Shown piece after piece: positions 55,128 to 61,706 of a DNA stretch of 64,000 nt (the stretch's first letter is position 1; each line of letters begins with the position of its first letter). The stretch covers positions 1-64,000 of the forward strand of contig NZ_UOOB01000001.1 in assembly GCF_900564145.1 (NCBI RefSeq), read 5' to 3'. The stretch is from Comamonas sp. lk (GTDB taxonomy: Bacteria > Pseudomonadota > Gammaproteobacteria > Burkholderiales > Burkholderiaceae_C). The notes beneath the pieces were generated by a model. It made no database searches. It was not told where the DNA came from and saw nothing but the letters and a program-made list of their open reading frames with translations. The position numbers and the translations under genes were made by a program.

Positions 55128-56066
55128 ATGGAACTGCGCCAGCTGCGCTACTTTGTACGGATTGTTGAACTGGGCTCCATGAGCCGTGCCGCTCTGCATC
55201 TAGATATGGTGCAGTCCGCGCTCAGCCAACAGATCAGCCGCCTGGAGTCCGAACTCTCCACCCGATTGCTGCAGCGCACGCCGCGCGGCGTGGTTCCCAC
55301 CGAGGCGGGTCAGGCTTTTTTCCATGAGGCCCAGCTCACCCTGCGCCATGCCGAGCAAGCCATTCATGCGGCCCAGCAGGCCAGACTCTCAGGGGCGGTC
55401 AGCATGGGGCTCTCGCCCACCATTGCCTCGGTGCTGGGCCTGCCTTTGATGCGTGCCATGCGCGAGCGCTATCCCGATGTGCGCCTGCATATGGTGTCCA
55501 CGCTTTCAGGGCATTTGACCAGTCTGCTCAATGCCAGACAACTGGATCTAGCTATTCTTTTTGATACGCACACGGCCAGACGCTGGAGCGTGATACCCTT
55601 ACTGGAAGAACAGCTGTTCCTGATCCAGTCGCGCCAGCAACCGGTGGCGCCGCGCATAGAGCATGCCCAGCCCATCAGCCTGGCCCAGCTGCAGCAGGTG
55701 CCACTGATCCTGCCTTCCGGCAGCCACGGCCTGCGCAGCTCCGTCATGGCCTCGTTCACCACGGCGGGCTTCCAGTCCCAGATGGCCATGGAAATCGATT
55801 CTCTGCCCCTGCTCATGGAGGCTGTGGACGCGGGCATGGGCGCCACCGTCCAGCCCTGGTCGGCCGTCGCCTTGTACAAGGACGCGGCGGAGCGCTTTCA
55901 GTGGTCGCAGATTGCCGACGACACCGTCAAGCGCAAGGCCGCGCTATGCAGCCTGTCCGATGACGAACTGTCCCCGGCAGCACTGGCCGCGCGCGTGGTG
56001 CTGGTGGACTGCGCACGGCAGCTGGTGAAATCCGGTGCCTGGGTAGGCGCCACGCTTGCAGACTGA
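55128..56066 (+). CDS. LysR-family transcriptional regulator
   Basis: A 312-residue LysR-type regulator: winged helix [19 protein letters not shown]...[24 protein letters not shown] at the N-terminus, then an effector-binding domain. It lies directly before tcuA in the same direction, and a perfect ATCACAA-A-TTGTGAT palindrome (T-N11-A) lies four bases after its stop, so it is the probable regulator of the tcu-like operon. Confidence 0.93.
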
Positions 56067-56240: not shown

Positions 56241-57707
56241 ATGGACTACGGACCATGGCAGCCCATCATGAAAACTGAAGCCTTTGACACCGATGTGCTC
56301 ATCATCGGTGGTGGCAACGCCGCTCTGTGCGCCGCGCTGATGGCGCGCGAAGCCGGCCGCCGCGTGCTGCTGCTCGAATCCGCGCCCCGCGAATGGCGCG
56401 GCGGCAATTCCGGCCACACCCGCAATTTGCGCTGCATGCACGATGCACCGCAGGATGTGCTGATCGAGGCCTACCCCGAAGACGAGTACTGGCAGGATCT
56501 GCTCAAGGTCACGGGCGGTATCACCAACGAGCATCTGGCCCGCATGGTGATTCGCGCCTCCAGCACCTGCCGCAACTGGATGCGCAGGCACGGCGTGCAC
56601 TTCCAGCCGCCGTTGTCGGGCGCGCTGCATGTGGCGCGCACCAATGCCTTCTTCATGGGTGGCGGCAAGGCGCTGGTGAATGCCTATTTCCGAAGCGCCG
56701 AAAAGCTGGGTGTGGAGATTCGCTACGAATCGCCCGTTGATCGACTGGAAATTGAAAACGGCCGCTTCCAGGCCGCGTGGGCCAAGGGTCAGCGCATCAC
56801 GGCCAAGAGCTGCGTGCTGGCGGCCGGCGGCTTCGAATCCAACCGCGAATGGCTGCGCGAGGCCTGGGGCCAGAACGAGCGCGGCGAATGGCCTTCGGAC
56901 AACTTTCTGATCCGCGGCACGGCCTTCAACAAGGGCACGCTGCTGCTCCACATGCTCGATGAGCAGGGCGCCGACCGCATAGGCGACCCGACCCAGGCCC
57001 ATATGGTGGCCATCGACGCCCGCGCCCCGCTGTATGACGGCGGCATCTGCACCCGCATCGACTGCGTCTCGCTGGGCGTGGTGGTCAATCGCGATGCCCA
57101 GCGCTTTTATGACGAGGGCGAGGACTTCTGGCCCAAGCGCTATGCCATCTGGGGCCGCCTGGTGGCCCAGCAGCCGGGGCAGATTGCCTACTCCATCATC
57201 GACAGCAAGGCCATAGGCCGCTTCATGCCGCCGGTGTTCCCCGGCGTGAAGGCCGATTCCCTGCCCGAGCTGGCGCAGAAGCTGGGCCTAGATGTGGACA
57301 CCTTCATGGCCACGCTGAATGCCTACAACAGCAGTTGCAAGGTAGGCCACTTTGACCATACGGCGCTGGACGATTGTCATACCGAAGGCCTGGCCCCGGC
57401 CAAGACCCACTGGGCGCGTCCGCTGGATACCGGCCCGTTCTACGGCTATGCGCTGCGTCCCGGCGTCACCTTCACCTATCTGGGCTTGAAGGTGGACGAC
57501 ACCGCCGCCGTGCGCTTTGACGATCAGCCCAGCGACAACCTGTTTGTGGCCGGTGAAATGATGGCCGGCAATGTGCTGGGCAAGGGCTATACGGCTGGTG
57601 TCGGCATGTCCATAGGCACGGCTTTTGGCCGCATCGCCGGACGCAATGCCGCCCTGGCCGCCGCCGGCAAAGCCGCTATCCATGGCGCCGTAAAGGACGA
57701 GGTCTAA
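56241..57707 (+). CDS. tcuA: FAD-dependent tricarballylate dehydrogenase
   Basis: Flavoprotein of the fumarate reductase/succinate dehydrogenase family that oxidises tricarballylate to cis-aconitate in Salmonella. The 488-residue protein begins with a FAD Rossmann segment DVLIIGGGNAALCAALMAREAG, has HARNLRCMH-type GHTRNLRCMHD and the C-terminal GEMMAGNVLGKGYTAGVGMSIGTAFGRIAG. tcuB follows after 3 bases, as in known tcu operons. A possible alternative start is the ATG at 56268. Confidence 0.9.
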   Translation: MDYGPWQPIMKTEAFDTDVLIIGGGNAALCAALMAREAGRRVLLLESAPREWRGGNSGHTRNLRCMHDAPQDVLIEAYPEDEYWQDLLKVTGGITNEHLARMVIRASSTCRNWMRRHGVHFQPPLSGALHVARTNAFFMGGGKALVNAYFRSAEKLGVEIRYESPVDRLEIENGRFQAAWAKGQRITAKSCVLAAGGFESNREWLREAWGQNERGEWPSDNFLIRGTAFNKGTLLLHMLDEQGADRIGDPTQAHMVAIDARAPLYDGGICTRIDCVSLGVVVNRDAQRFYDEGEDFWPKRYAIWGRLVAQQPGQIAYSIIDSKAIGRFMPPVFPGVKADSLPELAQKLGLDVDTFMATLNAYNSSCKVGHFDHTALDDCHTEGLAPAKTHWARPLDTGPFYGYALRPGVTFTYLGLKVDDTAAVRFDDQPSDNLFVAGEMMAGNVLGKGYTAGVGMSIGTAFGRIAGRNAALAAAGKAAIHGAVKDEV

Positions 57708-57710
57708 ATC

Positions 57711-58931
57711 ATGAGCATCCAATCCCTGCAAGAACTGGGCAAGGAAGCCCAGAGCCTGGCCGCCGGCAAGGTCATACCCATCCTCCCCGCGCCCACCGCG
57801 ACCGGACCCGAAACCGCTGCCGAAAGCGAAGTAGCGCGCCAGATGCAGATCTGCAATGCCTGCCGCTATTGCGAAGGCTTTTGCGCCGTGTTTCCGGCCA
57901 TGACGCGCCGGCTGGAATTCGGCAAGGCCGATGTGCATTACCTGGCCAACCTCTGCCACAACTGCGGCGCATGCCTGCACGCCTGCCAGTACGCGCCGCC
58001 GCATGAATTTGCCATCAACATCCCCAAGGCCATGGCCGAGGTGCGCGGTCAAACCTATGCCGACTACGCCTGGCCGCCGGCTCTGGGCAAGCTGTACCAG
58101 AAGAACGGCTTGACGCTGTCGCTGGCACTGGTCGCCGGGCTCTTTTTGTTCCTGGCACTGGCCGTGGCGGCGCAAGGCGGCCTGGGCCAGTTGTGGAACC
58201 GCAATCTGGGCAATAACTTCTACAACCTGTTCCCGCACAACCTGCTGGTCAGCATCTTTGCGCCGGTGTTTTTGTTCGTGGTGTTTGCCCTGTTCATGGG
58301 CGTGCGCCGCTTCTGGAAGGACGTAAAGCCCGCCACCAGCAATGTGGATGTCAGCGGCCCGGCCGCTGCTGAAGCCACGCACGATGTGCTGCGCCTCAAG
58401 TACCTGGACGGCGGCCACGGCGACGGCTGCCACAACGAGGACGACGCATACACCTTGAAGCGCCGCCGCTTTCACCACCTGACTTTCTATGGCTTCATGC
58501 TGTGCTTTGCGGCCACGGGGCTGGCGACGATTTACCACTACGTCTTCAAGCTGCCAGCACCTTACGAGCTGCCCAGCCTGCCCAAGATCCTCGGTGCTCT
58601 GGGCGGTGTGAGCCTGATGATCGGCACGGCCGGCCTGTGGCAGCTGAACCGCGCCCGCCACCCGCTGCATGGCGACGCGAAGCAAAAGCCCATGGACCTC
58701 GGCTTTATCGCCCTGCTGTTTGTGGTGGCCTCCAGCGGTCTGGCGCTGTGGCTGGGCCGCGGTACGCCCGCTCTGGCCTTGCTGCTATGCCTGCACCTGG
58801 GCGCCGTGATGGCCTTGTTTGCCACCCTGCCCTACGGCAAGTTTGCCCACGGAGTGTTCCGCACGGCATCGCTTTTGCGCCACAACACCGAAAAACGCCA
58901 ACCCAGCCCCATAGGCCTGGGTGCGGATTAA
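57711..58931 (+). CDS. tcuB: TcuB-like iron-sulfur membrane electron carrier
   Basis: Reoxidises the TcuA flavin and passes electrons to the membrane quinone pool. The 406-residue protein has two clustered cysteine motifs ([11 protein letters not shown] and [16 protein letters not shown]) for iron-sulfur centres, then about six membrane segments with conserved histidines. It is coupled to tcuA. Confidence 0.92.
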
Positions 58932-58979: not shown

Positions 58980-59963
58980 ATGATGAACAAACGCTATTTT
59001 CTGCGCGCCACGGCCGTGGCCACTTCCATGCTCTGGCTGGGCTCTGCCGCAATGGCAAGCCCCGAGTGGCTGCCCAACAAGCCCGTGACCCTGGTGGTGG
59101 GCTTTGCAGCCGGCGGTGCTGCCGATGCGGCGGCACGCATGATTGCCAAAAAGCTAGGCGAGAACATAGGCCAGACCGTGGTAGTGGACAACAAGGGCGG
59201 CGCGGGCGGCAATATCGCCCACCAGTTCGTGGCCAAGGCCCCGGCCGACGGCTCGGTACTGCTGTTCGGCTCCATCGGCCCGCTGACGATTGCGCCCCAC
59301 ATCATGAAGGTGGGCTACAACCCCTTCAGCGATCTGGCGCCCATCTCGGGCGGCGTGAACTTTCCCAATGTACTGGTGGTGCACAAGGGCGCGGGCGTGA
59401 AGACTCTGGCCGAATTCGTGGCCAAGGCCAAGAAGAGCCCCGGCAGCGTGGACTATGCATCGACAGGCGCAGGCTCGGCCTCGCATCTGGCGGGCGAGCT
59501 GTTCAACCAGCGCGCGAGTATTGAAATGGTTCACGTGCCCTACAAGGGCGGCGCGCCGGCCCTGCAGGATTTGCTGGGCGAGCGCGTCACCTCTTACTTT
59601 GCCGCTCCTCCCACGGCCTTGCCGCACATCGAATCGGGCAAGCTGATCCCGCTGGCCACCACGGGGCTGACCCGCCCGGCCTATATGCCCAACATCCCCA
59701 CCGTGGCAGAGGCAGGCTATCCGGGCTTCGAGGCTTTGAACTGGTACGCTTTTGTGGCCCCTGGCAAGACGCCCACCACAGTGCTGGACCGCTGGAATCT
59801 GGAAATCGTCAAAGTGCTCAAGGACCCCGGCGTGGCCGAAGCCCTCAAGCAGCACGGCCTGACACCCCAGCCCACCACCCGAGCCGAGTTCGCGGCCTTC
59901 ATGAAGAAGGAATACGAGCAGTGGGGCAAGGTGGTCAAGGAACGCAAGATCACCCAGAACTAG
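58980..59963 (+). CDS. Bug-family tripartite tricarboxylate transporter binding protein
   Basis: A 327-residue periplasmic solute-binding protein of the TctC/Bug family with a signal peptide ending near MAS (residue 27) and the family's PNKPVTLVVGFAAGGAADAAARMIA opening. It follows tcuB by 48 bases and probably supplies the operon's substrate (a tricarboxylate). No tctA/tctB permease genes are in the window. Confidence 0.93.
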   Translation: MMNKRYFLRATAVATSMLWLGSAAMASPEWLPNKPVTLVVGFAAGGAADAAARMIAKKLGENIGQTVVVDNKGGAGGNIAHQFVAKAPADGSVLLFGSIGPLTIAPHIMKVGYNPFSDLAPISGGVNFPNVLVVHKGAGVKTLAEFVAKAKKSPGSVDYASTGAGSASHLAGELFNQRASIEMVHVPYKGGAPALQDLLGERVTSYFAAPPTALPHIESGKLIPLATTGLTRPAYMPNIPTVAEAGYPGFEALNWYAFVAPGKTPTTVLDRWNLEIVKVLKDPGVAEALKQHGLTPQPTTRAEFAAFMKKEYEQWGKVVKERKITQN

Positions 59964-59980: not shown

Positions 59981-60466
59981 TCAGAGAGTGATGGGCTTCT
60001 TTTCCACCGGCGCGGCAAAGCCCACGCACAGACGGTTCCAGACATTGATGCAGCCGATGGCGTAGCTGAGCTCCACGATCTCGCGCTCGCTGAAATAGGG
60101 ACGCAGGGCTTCGAAGTCCTGCGGCGCGGGGTGGGCCTGGCTCAGCTGCGTGCAGCGCTCGGCCCAGTTCAGCGCAGCGCGCTCGCGCATCTCGAAGAAG
60201 TCCACCTCGCGCCAAGTCACCACGCTGTTGATGCGCTGCAGATCCTCGCCGCGCGACAGCAGCTCGCGCACATGCATGTCCACGCAAAAGGCACAGCCGT
60301 TGATCTGCGAGACGCGCAGATAGACCAGCTCCAGCAGCTGCACACCGAGGCTGGAGCGCGCGATCTGGGCGTTGAGGCCGGCCTGGGCCTTGTAAAGCTC
60401 GGGGGCCAGCGCACGGAAGTCCAGGCGCGGCGTGGGAATGGCAATGGGGTTGGCGATATCGGCCAT
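59981..60466 (-). CDS. AhpD-like carboxymuconolactone decarboxylase-family protein
   Basis: A 161-residue AhpD/CMD-fold protein. The reactive pair CAFC (cysteines 58 and 61) with Glu47 and His65 nearby matches the AhpD active site, and the N-terminus MADIANPIAIPTPRLDF is family-typical. It is likely a thiol-peroxidase-type reductase. ATG 60466 has AAGGAG upstream. It has its own TGTCACA-N16-CGTC promoter and lies downstream of the ECF sigma gene, the classic partner arrangement. Confidence 0.9.
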   Translation of the reverse strand: MADIANPIAIPTPRLDFRALAPELYKAQAGLNAQIARSSLGVQLLELVYLRVSQINGCAFCVDMHVRELLSRGEDLQRINSVVTWREVDFFEMRERAALNWAERCTQLSQAHPAPQDFEALRPYFSEREIVELSYAIGCINVWNRLCVGFAAPVEKKPITL

Positions 60467-60522
60467 CTGAAGACTCCTTGAGGCAATGCAGGCCCGCCCC
60501 TGCGGCTGGCCCATACCTCTAA

Positions 60523-60549
60523 GACGCGACAGCGGCCCGGTTTGTGACA
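60523..60549 (-). promoter_or_regulatory. ECF41 promoter of the AhpD-like gene
   Basis: On the minus strand TGTCACA (60543-60549) and CGTC (60523-60526) are separated by exactly 16 bases. This is the bipartite motif described for ECF41 sigma factors. The CGTC box ends 56 bases before the start codon. Confidence 0.85.
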
Positions 60550-60691
60550 GCCGCTGCGATCCAAACCAGGAACATCAATAAAGATAGCCTCTACCGCTCT
60601 ACGCAAAACAAGTTCAGAGATAAAACATTCTTAATCCATTGAATGACAAGCGGTAGCAGCTATGGTTTTTTCTGCTCTGCGGCTGATGCCC

Positions 60692-61618
60692 TCAAGCAGT
60701 CGAAGGCAGGATCACGCCCGTCAATTTGTCCGGATTGCGCAGCGTGTAGATGCGCTGGATCAGCCCGTCTTCGACCAGCAGCGTCTGCACCGACTCCACC
60801 TTGCCGTCCACGCAGCGCACCAGACCCGGCAGGCCGTTGACCCGCGCCAGATGCAGGGTCTGCTCCTGCCCGTCGCGGCGCAGGCGCCGGGCCGTGGCGA
60901 AGTACAGCAGCGCCAAGCGGCGCCCGGTTTCCAGCACGCGGCCAAAGGAGGCCACCTTGCCGCCGCCGTCGCTGACCAGCGCGGCATCGGGGGCAAAGAG
61001 GGCCTGGATCTGCGCCAGATCTCCGCCCTGTGCGGCCTGGGCAAAGCGGCGCAGCAGCTCGGCATGGGCTTGCGCCGGCGCATCGAAGCGCGGCCGCCCG
61101 GCCTTTACATGGGCCCGCGCGCGATGCACCAGCTGGCGACAGGCGGCCTCGCTGCGGCCCAGCGCCTGGGCCACCTCGGCATAGTCGGCATCGAAGACCT
61201 CGCGCAACAAAAAGGCCGCGCGCTCCTCGGGGGTGAGCTGCTCCAGCACGAACAGCAGGGCTGTGGAAACATCGTGGGCCCGCTCCAGCAGGTCCTCGGC
61301 CGAGGGAGCCGCCTCGGTCCAGGGCTGGACCAGCGGCTCGGGCAGCCAGAAGCCCGCGTAATGCTCGCGCTCCACGCGCAGGCGCCGCAGCCGGTCTATG
61401 GCCAACCGCGTGGCCGTGGTCACCAGCCAGGCCTCGGGCTGGGCAATGGCGGCGCGCTCGCTGTCCTGCCAGCGCAGCCAGACATCCTGCACCAGATCCT
61501 CGGCCTCGGCCCGCTGGCCCAGCATGCGATAGGCCAGACCGAACAGACGCCGACGATGACGCTCGAACTCCTGCAGTCCCGCATCGGCGGACGGCGCAGC
61601 ATGGGAAGTGGGACTCAC
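60692..61618 (-). CDS. ECF41-type RNA polymerase sigma factor
   Basis: A 308-residue ECF sigma factor of the SigJ/ECF41 group: sigma2 (residues about 17-85), the linker WLPEP (91-95), sigma4 (about 120-175) and a fused C-terminal SnoaL-like domain with the hallmark DGGGK (217-221) and NPDKL (295-299) motifs. The extension is thought to control activity in place of a classic anti-sigma. The start is GTG at 61618 with AGGAG 7 bases upstream. It is upstream of, and same-strand with, the AhpD-like gene. Confidence 0.93.
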   Translation of the reverse strand: MSPTSHAAPSADAGLQEFERHRRRLFGLAYRMLGQRAEAEDLVQDVWLRWQDSERAAIAQPEAWLVTTATRLAIDRLRRLRVEREHYAGFWLPEPLVQPWTEAAPSAEDLLERAHDVSTALLFVLEQLTPEERAAFLLREVFDADYAEVAQALGRSEAACRQLVHRARAHVKAGRPRFDAPAQAHAELLRRFAQAAQGGDLAQIQALFAPDAALVSDGGGKVASFGRVLETGRRLALLYFATARRLRRDGQEQTLHLARVNGLPGLVRCVDGKVESVQTLLVEDGLIQRIYTLRNPDKLTGVILPSTA

Positions 61619-61658
61619 CTGAGGTCTCCTGCAAATAGACTGAGGGCCGGCCACCCAG

Positions 61659-61665
61659 TGTGACA
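61659..61665 (-). promoter_or_regulatory. Extra TGTCACA box inside the sigma-gene leader
   Basis: A third exact TGTCACA lies between the distal promoter and the sigma start. The AGTC 17 bases downstream is only a near match to CGTC. It could be a weak second promoter or a decoy site. Confidence 0.35.
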
Positions 61666-61679
61666 GGCACCAAGCCTTA

Positions 61680-61706
61680 GACGCAGAACGTGCAGCTTTT
61701 GTGACA
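61680..61706 (-). promoter_or_regulatory. ECF41 promoter of the sigma gene (autoregulation)
   Basis: TGTCACA (61700-61706) and CGTC (61680-61683) with exactly 16 bases between, 61 bases before the sigma start codon. It is identical in layout to the AhpD-gene promoter, so the sigma factor probably drives its own gene. Confidence 0.85.

Follow-up and report, generated by a model that had tools for sequence, protein, structure and literature searches.

An ECF41 sigma factor gene and its AhpD-like partner in Comamonas: two exact promoters, and predicted mRNA leader formats among their relatives

Described ECF41 systems and the Comamonas pair

Sigma factors of group ECF41 have been characterized by a WLPEP motif, a long C-terminal extension and neighboring genes for carboxymuconolactone decarboxylases (CMD), oxidoreductases or epimerases, and passages of the same paper give their promoter as TGTCACA-n16-CGTC with a spacing of 16 ± 1 and the partner gene as the only detectable target (PMC3426412). 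Partial truncation of the extension raised promoter activity about 20-fold and 120-fold, and its full removal abolished activity (PMC3426412); PMC7730460 reports contact between NPDKL and the linker motif. The best comparisons are RSP_0606-ecf41Rsp of Rhodobacter sphaeroides and ydfG-ecf41Bli of Bacillus licheniformis, which combine a TGTCACA -35 and a CGTC or TGTT -10 with a CMD target containing CxxC, a C-terminal extension and no nearby anti-sigma gene (PMC3426412). The SMb20029-rpoE9 pair of Sinorhizobium meliloti is likewise ECF41 with a CMD target, has its transcription start mapped 9 nt past the motif, and is arranged with the partner first behind a single operon promoter (PMC6180224, PMC3616915). 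The order sigma-then-partner accounts for 53/373 entries (14%) in Table 4 of PMC3426412, where approximately 20% of the loci in this order are reported to have the motif before both genes.

The locus studied here lies in the first 64,000 nucleotides of contig NZ_UOOB01000001.1 of Comamonas sp. lk, a stretch that we call, at its full length, the window. A preliminary description made from the letters had claimed an ECF41 sigma factor gene, an AhpD/CMD-type gene just downstream as the typical ECF41 partner, and exact TGTCACA-N16-CGTC sites 61 and 56 bases before the two start codons. Both sites are as claimed (Table 1), one lying 61 nt before GTG 61618 and the other 56 nt before ATG 60466, and the assignments of family, partner and promoter hold, with motif, WLPEP/NPDKL and partner all matching published ECF41. 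The predicted self-driving two-gene regulon is likewise supported by sequence comparison and equals the ECF41 paradigm in passages of PMC3426412. As in R. sphaeroides and B. licheniformis, no anti-sigma gene is present among the direct neighbors of the pair, which were the genes looked at. Unlike those two loci, the window has the sigma gene first and a separate promoter for each gene, and its start codons lie 61 and 56 nt past the -10 as opposed to the 31 and 32 nt tabulated for them (PMC3426412); S. meliloti differs in both gene order and promoter number. The pair is thus a member of an already described group, of a described kind and ordinary for that group, and the new part is the predicted leader anatomy among its relatives.

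Table 1. Positions in the window of the two genes and of the elements assigned to them
Feature	Position	Strand	Details
ECF41 promoter of sigma gene	61680..61706	-	TGTCACA 61700-61706 (-35), N16, CGTC 61680-61683 (-10)
Predicted 5'-terminal hairpin, sigma mRNA	61644..61671	-	predicted +1 at 61671
AGGAG ribosome-binding site, sigma gene	61626..61630	-	invariant in 14 aligned rows
ECF41-type sigma factor gene	60692..61618	-	GTG start, 308 aa; sigma2, sigma4, SigJ-like C-terminal extension
Inverted repeat between both genes	60570..60677		arms 60570-60598 and 60649-60677, 72% complementary
ECF41 promoter of AhpD-like gene	60523..60549	-	TGTCACA-N16-CGTC
Predicted 5'-terminal hairpin, AhpD-like mRNA	60490..60512	-	predicted +1 at 60514, the A of an ATG
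AGGAG ribosome-binding site, AhpD-like gene	60474..60478	-	
AhpD-like gene, CMD family	59981..60466	-	161 aa, CAFCVDMH motif (CxxC)

The sigma protein matches PF04542 and PF08281 (sigma2 and sigma4), both above the Pfam cut-off, and continues for about 135 residues past sigma4, the extension typical of the group being about 100 residues long. All three hallmarks named in the preliminary description are present: WLPEP at residue 91, between sigma2 and sigma4; DGGGK, also an ECF41 hallmark, at residue 217; and NPDKL at residue 295. Across 35 aligned sigma rows W91, E94, P95, D217, G219, G220, N295, P296 and K298 are invariant and L92, P93, G218 and L299 are at least 90% conserved, with D297 and K221 in neither list. 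The protein scores above the cut-off of the SigJ subfamily model NF007214 (320.3 vs. 271) and 0.55 bits below that of TIGR02957 (322.7 vs. 323.25). Mycobacterium tuberculosis SigJ (structure 5xe7), which belongs to the same SigJ subfamily in an organism of a different phylum, aligns with residues 12-303 of the 308, C-terminal extension included. Pfam reported no SnoaL domain in the protein at E<=0.001, so that a SnoaL/NTF2-like fold of the extension, as in ECF41, would rest on this similarity to SigJ. The genome has a single ECF41; its other sigma matches, nine in number, align only in part, at 27-36% identity. GTG 61618, from which the 61-nt distance is counted, is preceded by AGGAG, and a longer protein beginning at GTG 61654 was rejected, its frame being broken by a 2-nt gap in three relatives (L073, L078 and L079). 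The upstream neighbor of the sigma gene is gamma-glutamyltransferase-like (TIGR00066, 321.7 vs. a cut-off of 357.85).

The partner protein is of the CMD type that had been claimed, with PF02627 and TIGR00778 above their cut-offs. It fails the full-length AhpD subfamily model TIGR00777 (21.9 vs. a cut-off of 191.95 bits), so the right name is AhpD-like and not AhpD proper. The structures of PA0269 (2o4d) and Atu0492 (2gmy), CMD-family proteins deposited as hypothetical, match residues 12-151 and 14-152 of its 161, nearly the whole protein. We rejected an N-terminally extended form from ATG 60514, as in 6/13 loci the main ATG lies 58 or 55 nt past CGTC, not 56, and is out of frame.

The two promoters had been called very unlikely to arise by chance. 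Shuffles of the window bear this out, with an average of 0.10 matches to the pattern at spacers N14-18 and two matches in 0/100 shuffles. Scanning the whole genome (two contigs, 4,899,818 bases), as the preliminary description had suggested, gave five N14-18 matches, and N16 occurs only in the window's two sites; the reversed pattern at exact N16 has 0 matches in the same genome. Allowing up to one mismatch yields 33 genome sites vs. 43 for the reversed control, which is no enrichment and thus no sign of further regulon members, and we dropped the idea of a larger regulon in this genome. Across the genus the motif alone is unspecific, with 65 matches vs. 52 in the reversed control (53 genomes, summed by hand). 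A second TGTCACA at 61659-61665 was considered as a tandem promoter and rejected because CGTC follows 16 nt on in 0/14 rows (by eye); row L082 reads TTTCACA at this position. With exactly two sites in its genome, the locus is a clean, minimal ECF41 regulon and a good test bed for the ECF41 signal.

Promoter conservation and unlinked partner genes

Relatives at E<=1e-60 were found in 33/150 family genomes and 21/53 genus genomes, both counts including the window's own genome. Both promoters are exact in 13/13 loci, comprising the window and its 12 closest relatives (sigma proteins 88-96% identical to the window's), and the spacer bases vary. All exact matches had a spacer of 16 when 50 loci were scanned for spacers of 15 to 17. 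Among the matches listed, those with a name in this part of the tree come from a Comamonas MAG (94%) and from Delftia tsuruhatensis (83%). Over 36 clusters with ECF>CMD order, the motif stands before both genes in 22, before the sigma gene only in 6, before the partner only in 3 and before neither in 5.

Six Delftia-like genomes (L085-L090) have a sigma gene without an adjacent partner; these sigma proteins are 81-85% identical to the window's and form one clade (97/98). Five of the genomes (G150, G151, G181, G199 and G200) carry the AhpD-like gene elsewhere, with an exact motif. The unlinked genes are 76-80% identical to the window's and adjoin the same TctC-type receptor gene (86-89% identical). 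An exact promoter at an unlinked AhpD-like gene means that motif and gene have remained together, which regulation in trans would predict; in these loci a natural experiment has parted the two genes, and the promoter is still found at the partner. The sigma promoter is exact in four of the five, the -35 of G151 reading TGTCACG. Both promoters lie on one contig in G200, approximately 153 kb apart, and on different contigs in the other four. Neither the AhpD-like gene nor the motif was recognized in the sixth genome, G182, which is 59% complete. Conserved boxes with drifting spacers, taken together with the split loci, support a function of the boxes, and the comparative support for both as promoters is strong.

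These comparisons also bear on the possibility that the two genes form an operon, in which transcription of the AhpD-like gene comes mainly from the sigma promoter and the second promoter is a relic. The arrangement would allow it: both genes are on the same strand, only 142 bp separate the sigma stop codon from the second promoter, a simple scan found no terminator between the genes, and the intergenic sequence folds no better than shuffles. We nonetheless consider a relic highly unlikely, because the window and 12/12 of its closest relatives all carry an exact second promoter, and because the AhpD-like gene also has an exact one in the five Delftia-like genomes where no sigma gene is adjacent. 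Our preferred reading is that each gene would be read from its own promoter.

Further copies of the motif occur among the relatives. G181 has a third locus (L221), where a second CMD gene, 40% identical, carries an exact ECF41 promoter. Two genomes (G156 and G196; L215 and L216) have an exact TGTCACA-N16-CGTC 75-76 nt before a gene whose start resembles, by eye, that of an RND efflux adaptor. The spacer sequence turned up in no other of the 53 genus genomes searched, and the site is possibly an extra ECF41 target, or chance. Two more exact or near-identical copies, each common to three relatives (L212-L214 and L217-L219), are not followed by a long open frame that begins in the next 160 nt, and are probably chance.

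Predicted leaders of the two mRNAs

We surveyed leaders in 137 loci, made up of 30 (of 35 family-genome matches), 20 from the genus, the best 80 of 414 relatives and 7 others; this is not an even sample of ECF41, and some loci are the same contig in different collections. Clustering at 80% protein identity reduced the 137 to 93. Leader distance was taken from the -10 to an in-frame start, with the last base of the -35 free, C or T at the -10 ends and spacers of N15-17, and transcription was expected to start 7-10 nt past CGTC. The mapped S. meliloti ECF41 start lies 9 nt past the motif (PMC3616915; promoter sequence in PMC6180224, its last letter taken here as +1). For the R. sphaeroides and B. 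licheniformis promoters, passages of PMC3426412 give RACE leaders of 22/23 nt and tabulate 31/32 nt, which would agree with a 9-nt start provided that the tabulated distances are measured from the -10.

A predicted start codon of the sigma gene falls at the expected transcription start in many relatives. Before clustering, an in-frame ATG stands at 7-10 nt in 36/59 sigma promoters (15 near-copies, L073-L084, L122, L129 and L204, left out); after clustering it does so in 21/42 sigma vs. 2/35 partner promoters (Fisher p 1.6e-5) and, in ECF>CMD order only, in 16/28 sigma promoters, all of these counts coming from the sample that includes the best 80 of 414 relatives. An SD-like 4-mer precedes the start-site ATG in 0/21 of the sigma clusters concerned, which also have no SD-backed in-frame start at least 20 nt downstream, to 30 nt into the matched region; these sigma mRNAs are thus predicted to be leaderless. 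By contrast with these, 30/35 partner genes have a start at 28-105 nt that is preceded by an SD-like 4-mer. The other 21/42 sigma promoters, the window's included, are not of the leaderless type, and the window's clade is an exception in having its sigma start 61 nt past CGTC, behind an SD and a hairpin that has weak support.

One could object that the start-site ATG is an initiator preference of ECF41 promoters and that translation starts elsewhere. ATG or GTG is found at offsets 6-8 in 19/25 partner leaders too, and a few sigma genes (e.g., L065, L068 and L140) have a second in-frame ATG further down. We think this unlikely given that SD-like sites number 0 across the 21 clusters, both at the start-site ATG and at the downstream in-frame starts in the range given above, and we favor leaderless translation of these sigma mRNAs. 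Leaderless mRNAs are reported to be frequent in Cupriavidus metallidurans, at 4.67% of primary starts, and enriched in transcription functions (passages of PMC7563307). PMC3426412 nowhere uses "leaderless," "hairpin" or "stem-loop," the passages of PMC3616915 seen here describe no ECF41 sigma mRNA as leaderless, and a literature search found no paper on ECF41 in Comamonas or on CMD together with an ECF sigma in Delftia.

The distribution of leaders was compared with a maximum-likelihood tree built from 35 hand-picked and hand-labeled sigma proteins and midpoint-rooted for drawing only. The window's leadered clade (99/99) adjoins the Delftia-like clade, which is leaderless in 5/6 (the sixth is without a recognized promoter); the next branch out, L044, is leaderless, and the whole group is supported at 100/100. 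The simplest reading of this tree is that a leader was gained in the window's clade. Over all 35 proteins the leaderless label requires six changes, suggesting that the trait has shifted repeatedly.

Partner leaders show a predicted structure of their own. In ECF>CMD loci the partner transcript folds better over its first 30 nt than dinucleotide shuffles do (combined z -9.42; 25 clusters, from the sample including the best 80 of 414 relatives), with p<=0.05 in 12/25 clusters and the other 13/25 not significant singly. At offsets of -60, -30, 37, 67, 97 and 127 the combined z ranges from -1.0 to +2.6, and p<=0.05 is reached by no more than 3 of the 25 clusters (0 to 3, depending on the offset). 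No hairpin signal was found in leaderless sigma transcripts (z +0.8, n=21, 0 at p<=0.05) or leadered ones (z +0.5, n=21, 1 at p<=0.05), and no combined signal in partner genes in other gene orders (z -0.4, n=10, 1 at p<=0.05). Whole-leader fold energies gave a weak signal only (combined z -2.75, n=39), whereas the position-wise test gave a clear one. Stems vary in sequence across genera, yet start within about 10 nt of +1, an anatomy that, from general knowledge, would be that of a 5' mRNA stabilizer. A convincing stem is missing in some loci, for example a Variovorax cluster (L051 and L124). An Rfam element was considered and rejected, as all four Rfam matches were below their gathering scores.

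Within the window neither hairpin is significant by shuffling, whether for the AhpD-like mRNA (z -1.45; whole leader +0.75) or for the sigma mRNA (30-nt z -1.36; longer stretch +0.73), whose hairpin has the second TGTCACA in its 5' arm. Alignment of the close clade gives 88.9% of cells paired for the partner hairpin, with a single pair in which both sides differ, in two rows, and 6/500 shuffles reaching its score, and 97.5% of cells paired for the sigma hairpin, with one both-sides change and 84/500 shuffles reaching its score. Covariation is strong in neither, and the case for hairpins rests on the family set and on conservation, not on the window's own leaders. ATG stands at offsets 6-9 in 13/25 partner leaders; with the start codons at offsets 6-8 noted above, many partner mRNAs, the window's among them, may combine an AUG at or close to their 5' end with an SD, resembling the E. 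coli mRNAs described in PMC4965119.

The hairpins might alternatively be palindromes in DNA, bound by a repressor at the start site, and not RNA structures. They sit at the predicted +1, a common operator position, and several are near-perfect inverted repeats. Their sequences, however, vary widely across genera while the position persists, which a single repressor could hardly tolerate, and in the close clade a G-C pair becomes A-U on both sides in two rows, although this covariation is thin. We regard operators as a minority possibility, if a less remote one than the initiator preference above, and prefer RNA hairpins. Taking these patterns together, it seems to us an even call whether one promoter sequence serves two formats, with a leaderless sigma mRNA in many relatives vs. 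an enzyme mRNA that is led by a hairpin, often behind a 5'-terminal AUG, and translated from an SD, the sigma gene of the window's clade having switched from the first format to the second. As a general mechanism, this computed leader dichotomy stands at about even.

A predicted switch and the surrounding sequence

The locus is very probably a group ECF41 one-component switch in which the sigma gene and its AhpD-like partner are both read from TGTCACA-N16-CGTC. Promoter use, autoregulation, the role of the enzyme and the signal we infer as follows. The sigma factor would be kept inactive by its own C-terminal extension, the NPDKL tail contacting the WLPEP linker as in the literature, until a signal, perhaps a small molecule or a redox change, relaxes this contact. 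Sigma-RNA polymerase would then read both promoters, amplifying sigma, and the AhpD-like CxxC protein would be made, probably as a thiol-disulfide oxidoreductase or peroxidase-type enzyme. Where a sigma promoter is present in the clustered relatives, half of them would have a sigma mRNA that starts at its AUG without a leader, and the partner mRNA would have an SD in its leader as well as, in many loci, a 5' hairpin; both messages would have the leader-plus-SD format in the window's clade. If true, one sigma factor would give its own mRNA and that of its target different modes of translation and different lifetimes with no extra regulator, the same holoenzyme producing an SD-independent, possibly stress-favored amplification of sigma and a stable, efficiently translated enzyme message.

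The AhpD-like gene adjoins a receptor gene at 58980-59963, presumably TctC-like, which has no NCBIfam match at 1e-10. Beyond it lie the tricarballylate utilization genes tcuA and tcuB (56241-58931; NF006130 and NF011607 above cut-off) and, near these, a LysR-type regulator gene (55128-56066). The inverted-repeat stretch between the sigma and AhpD-like genes folds no better than shuffles (z -0.09). Part of one of its arms is covered by the motif ATAGCTGCTANCGCTTG, which has 31 genome copies at up to one mismatch vs. 0 in the reversed control and is an interspersed repeat family.
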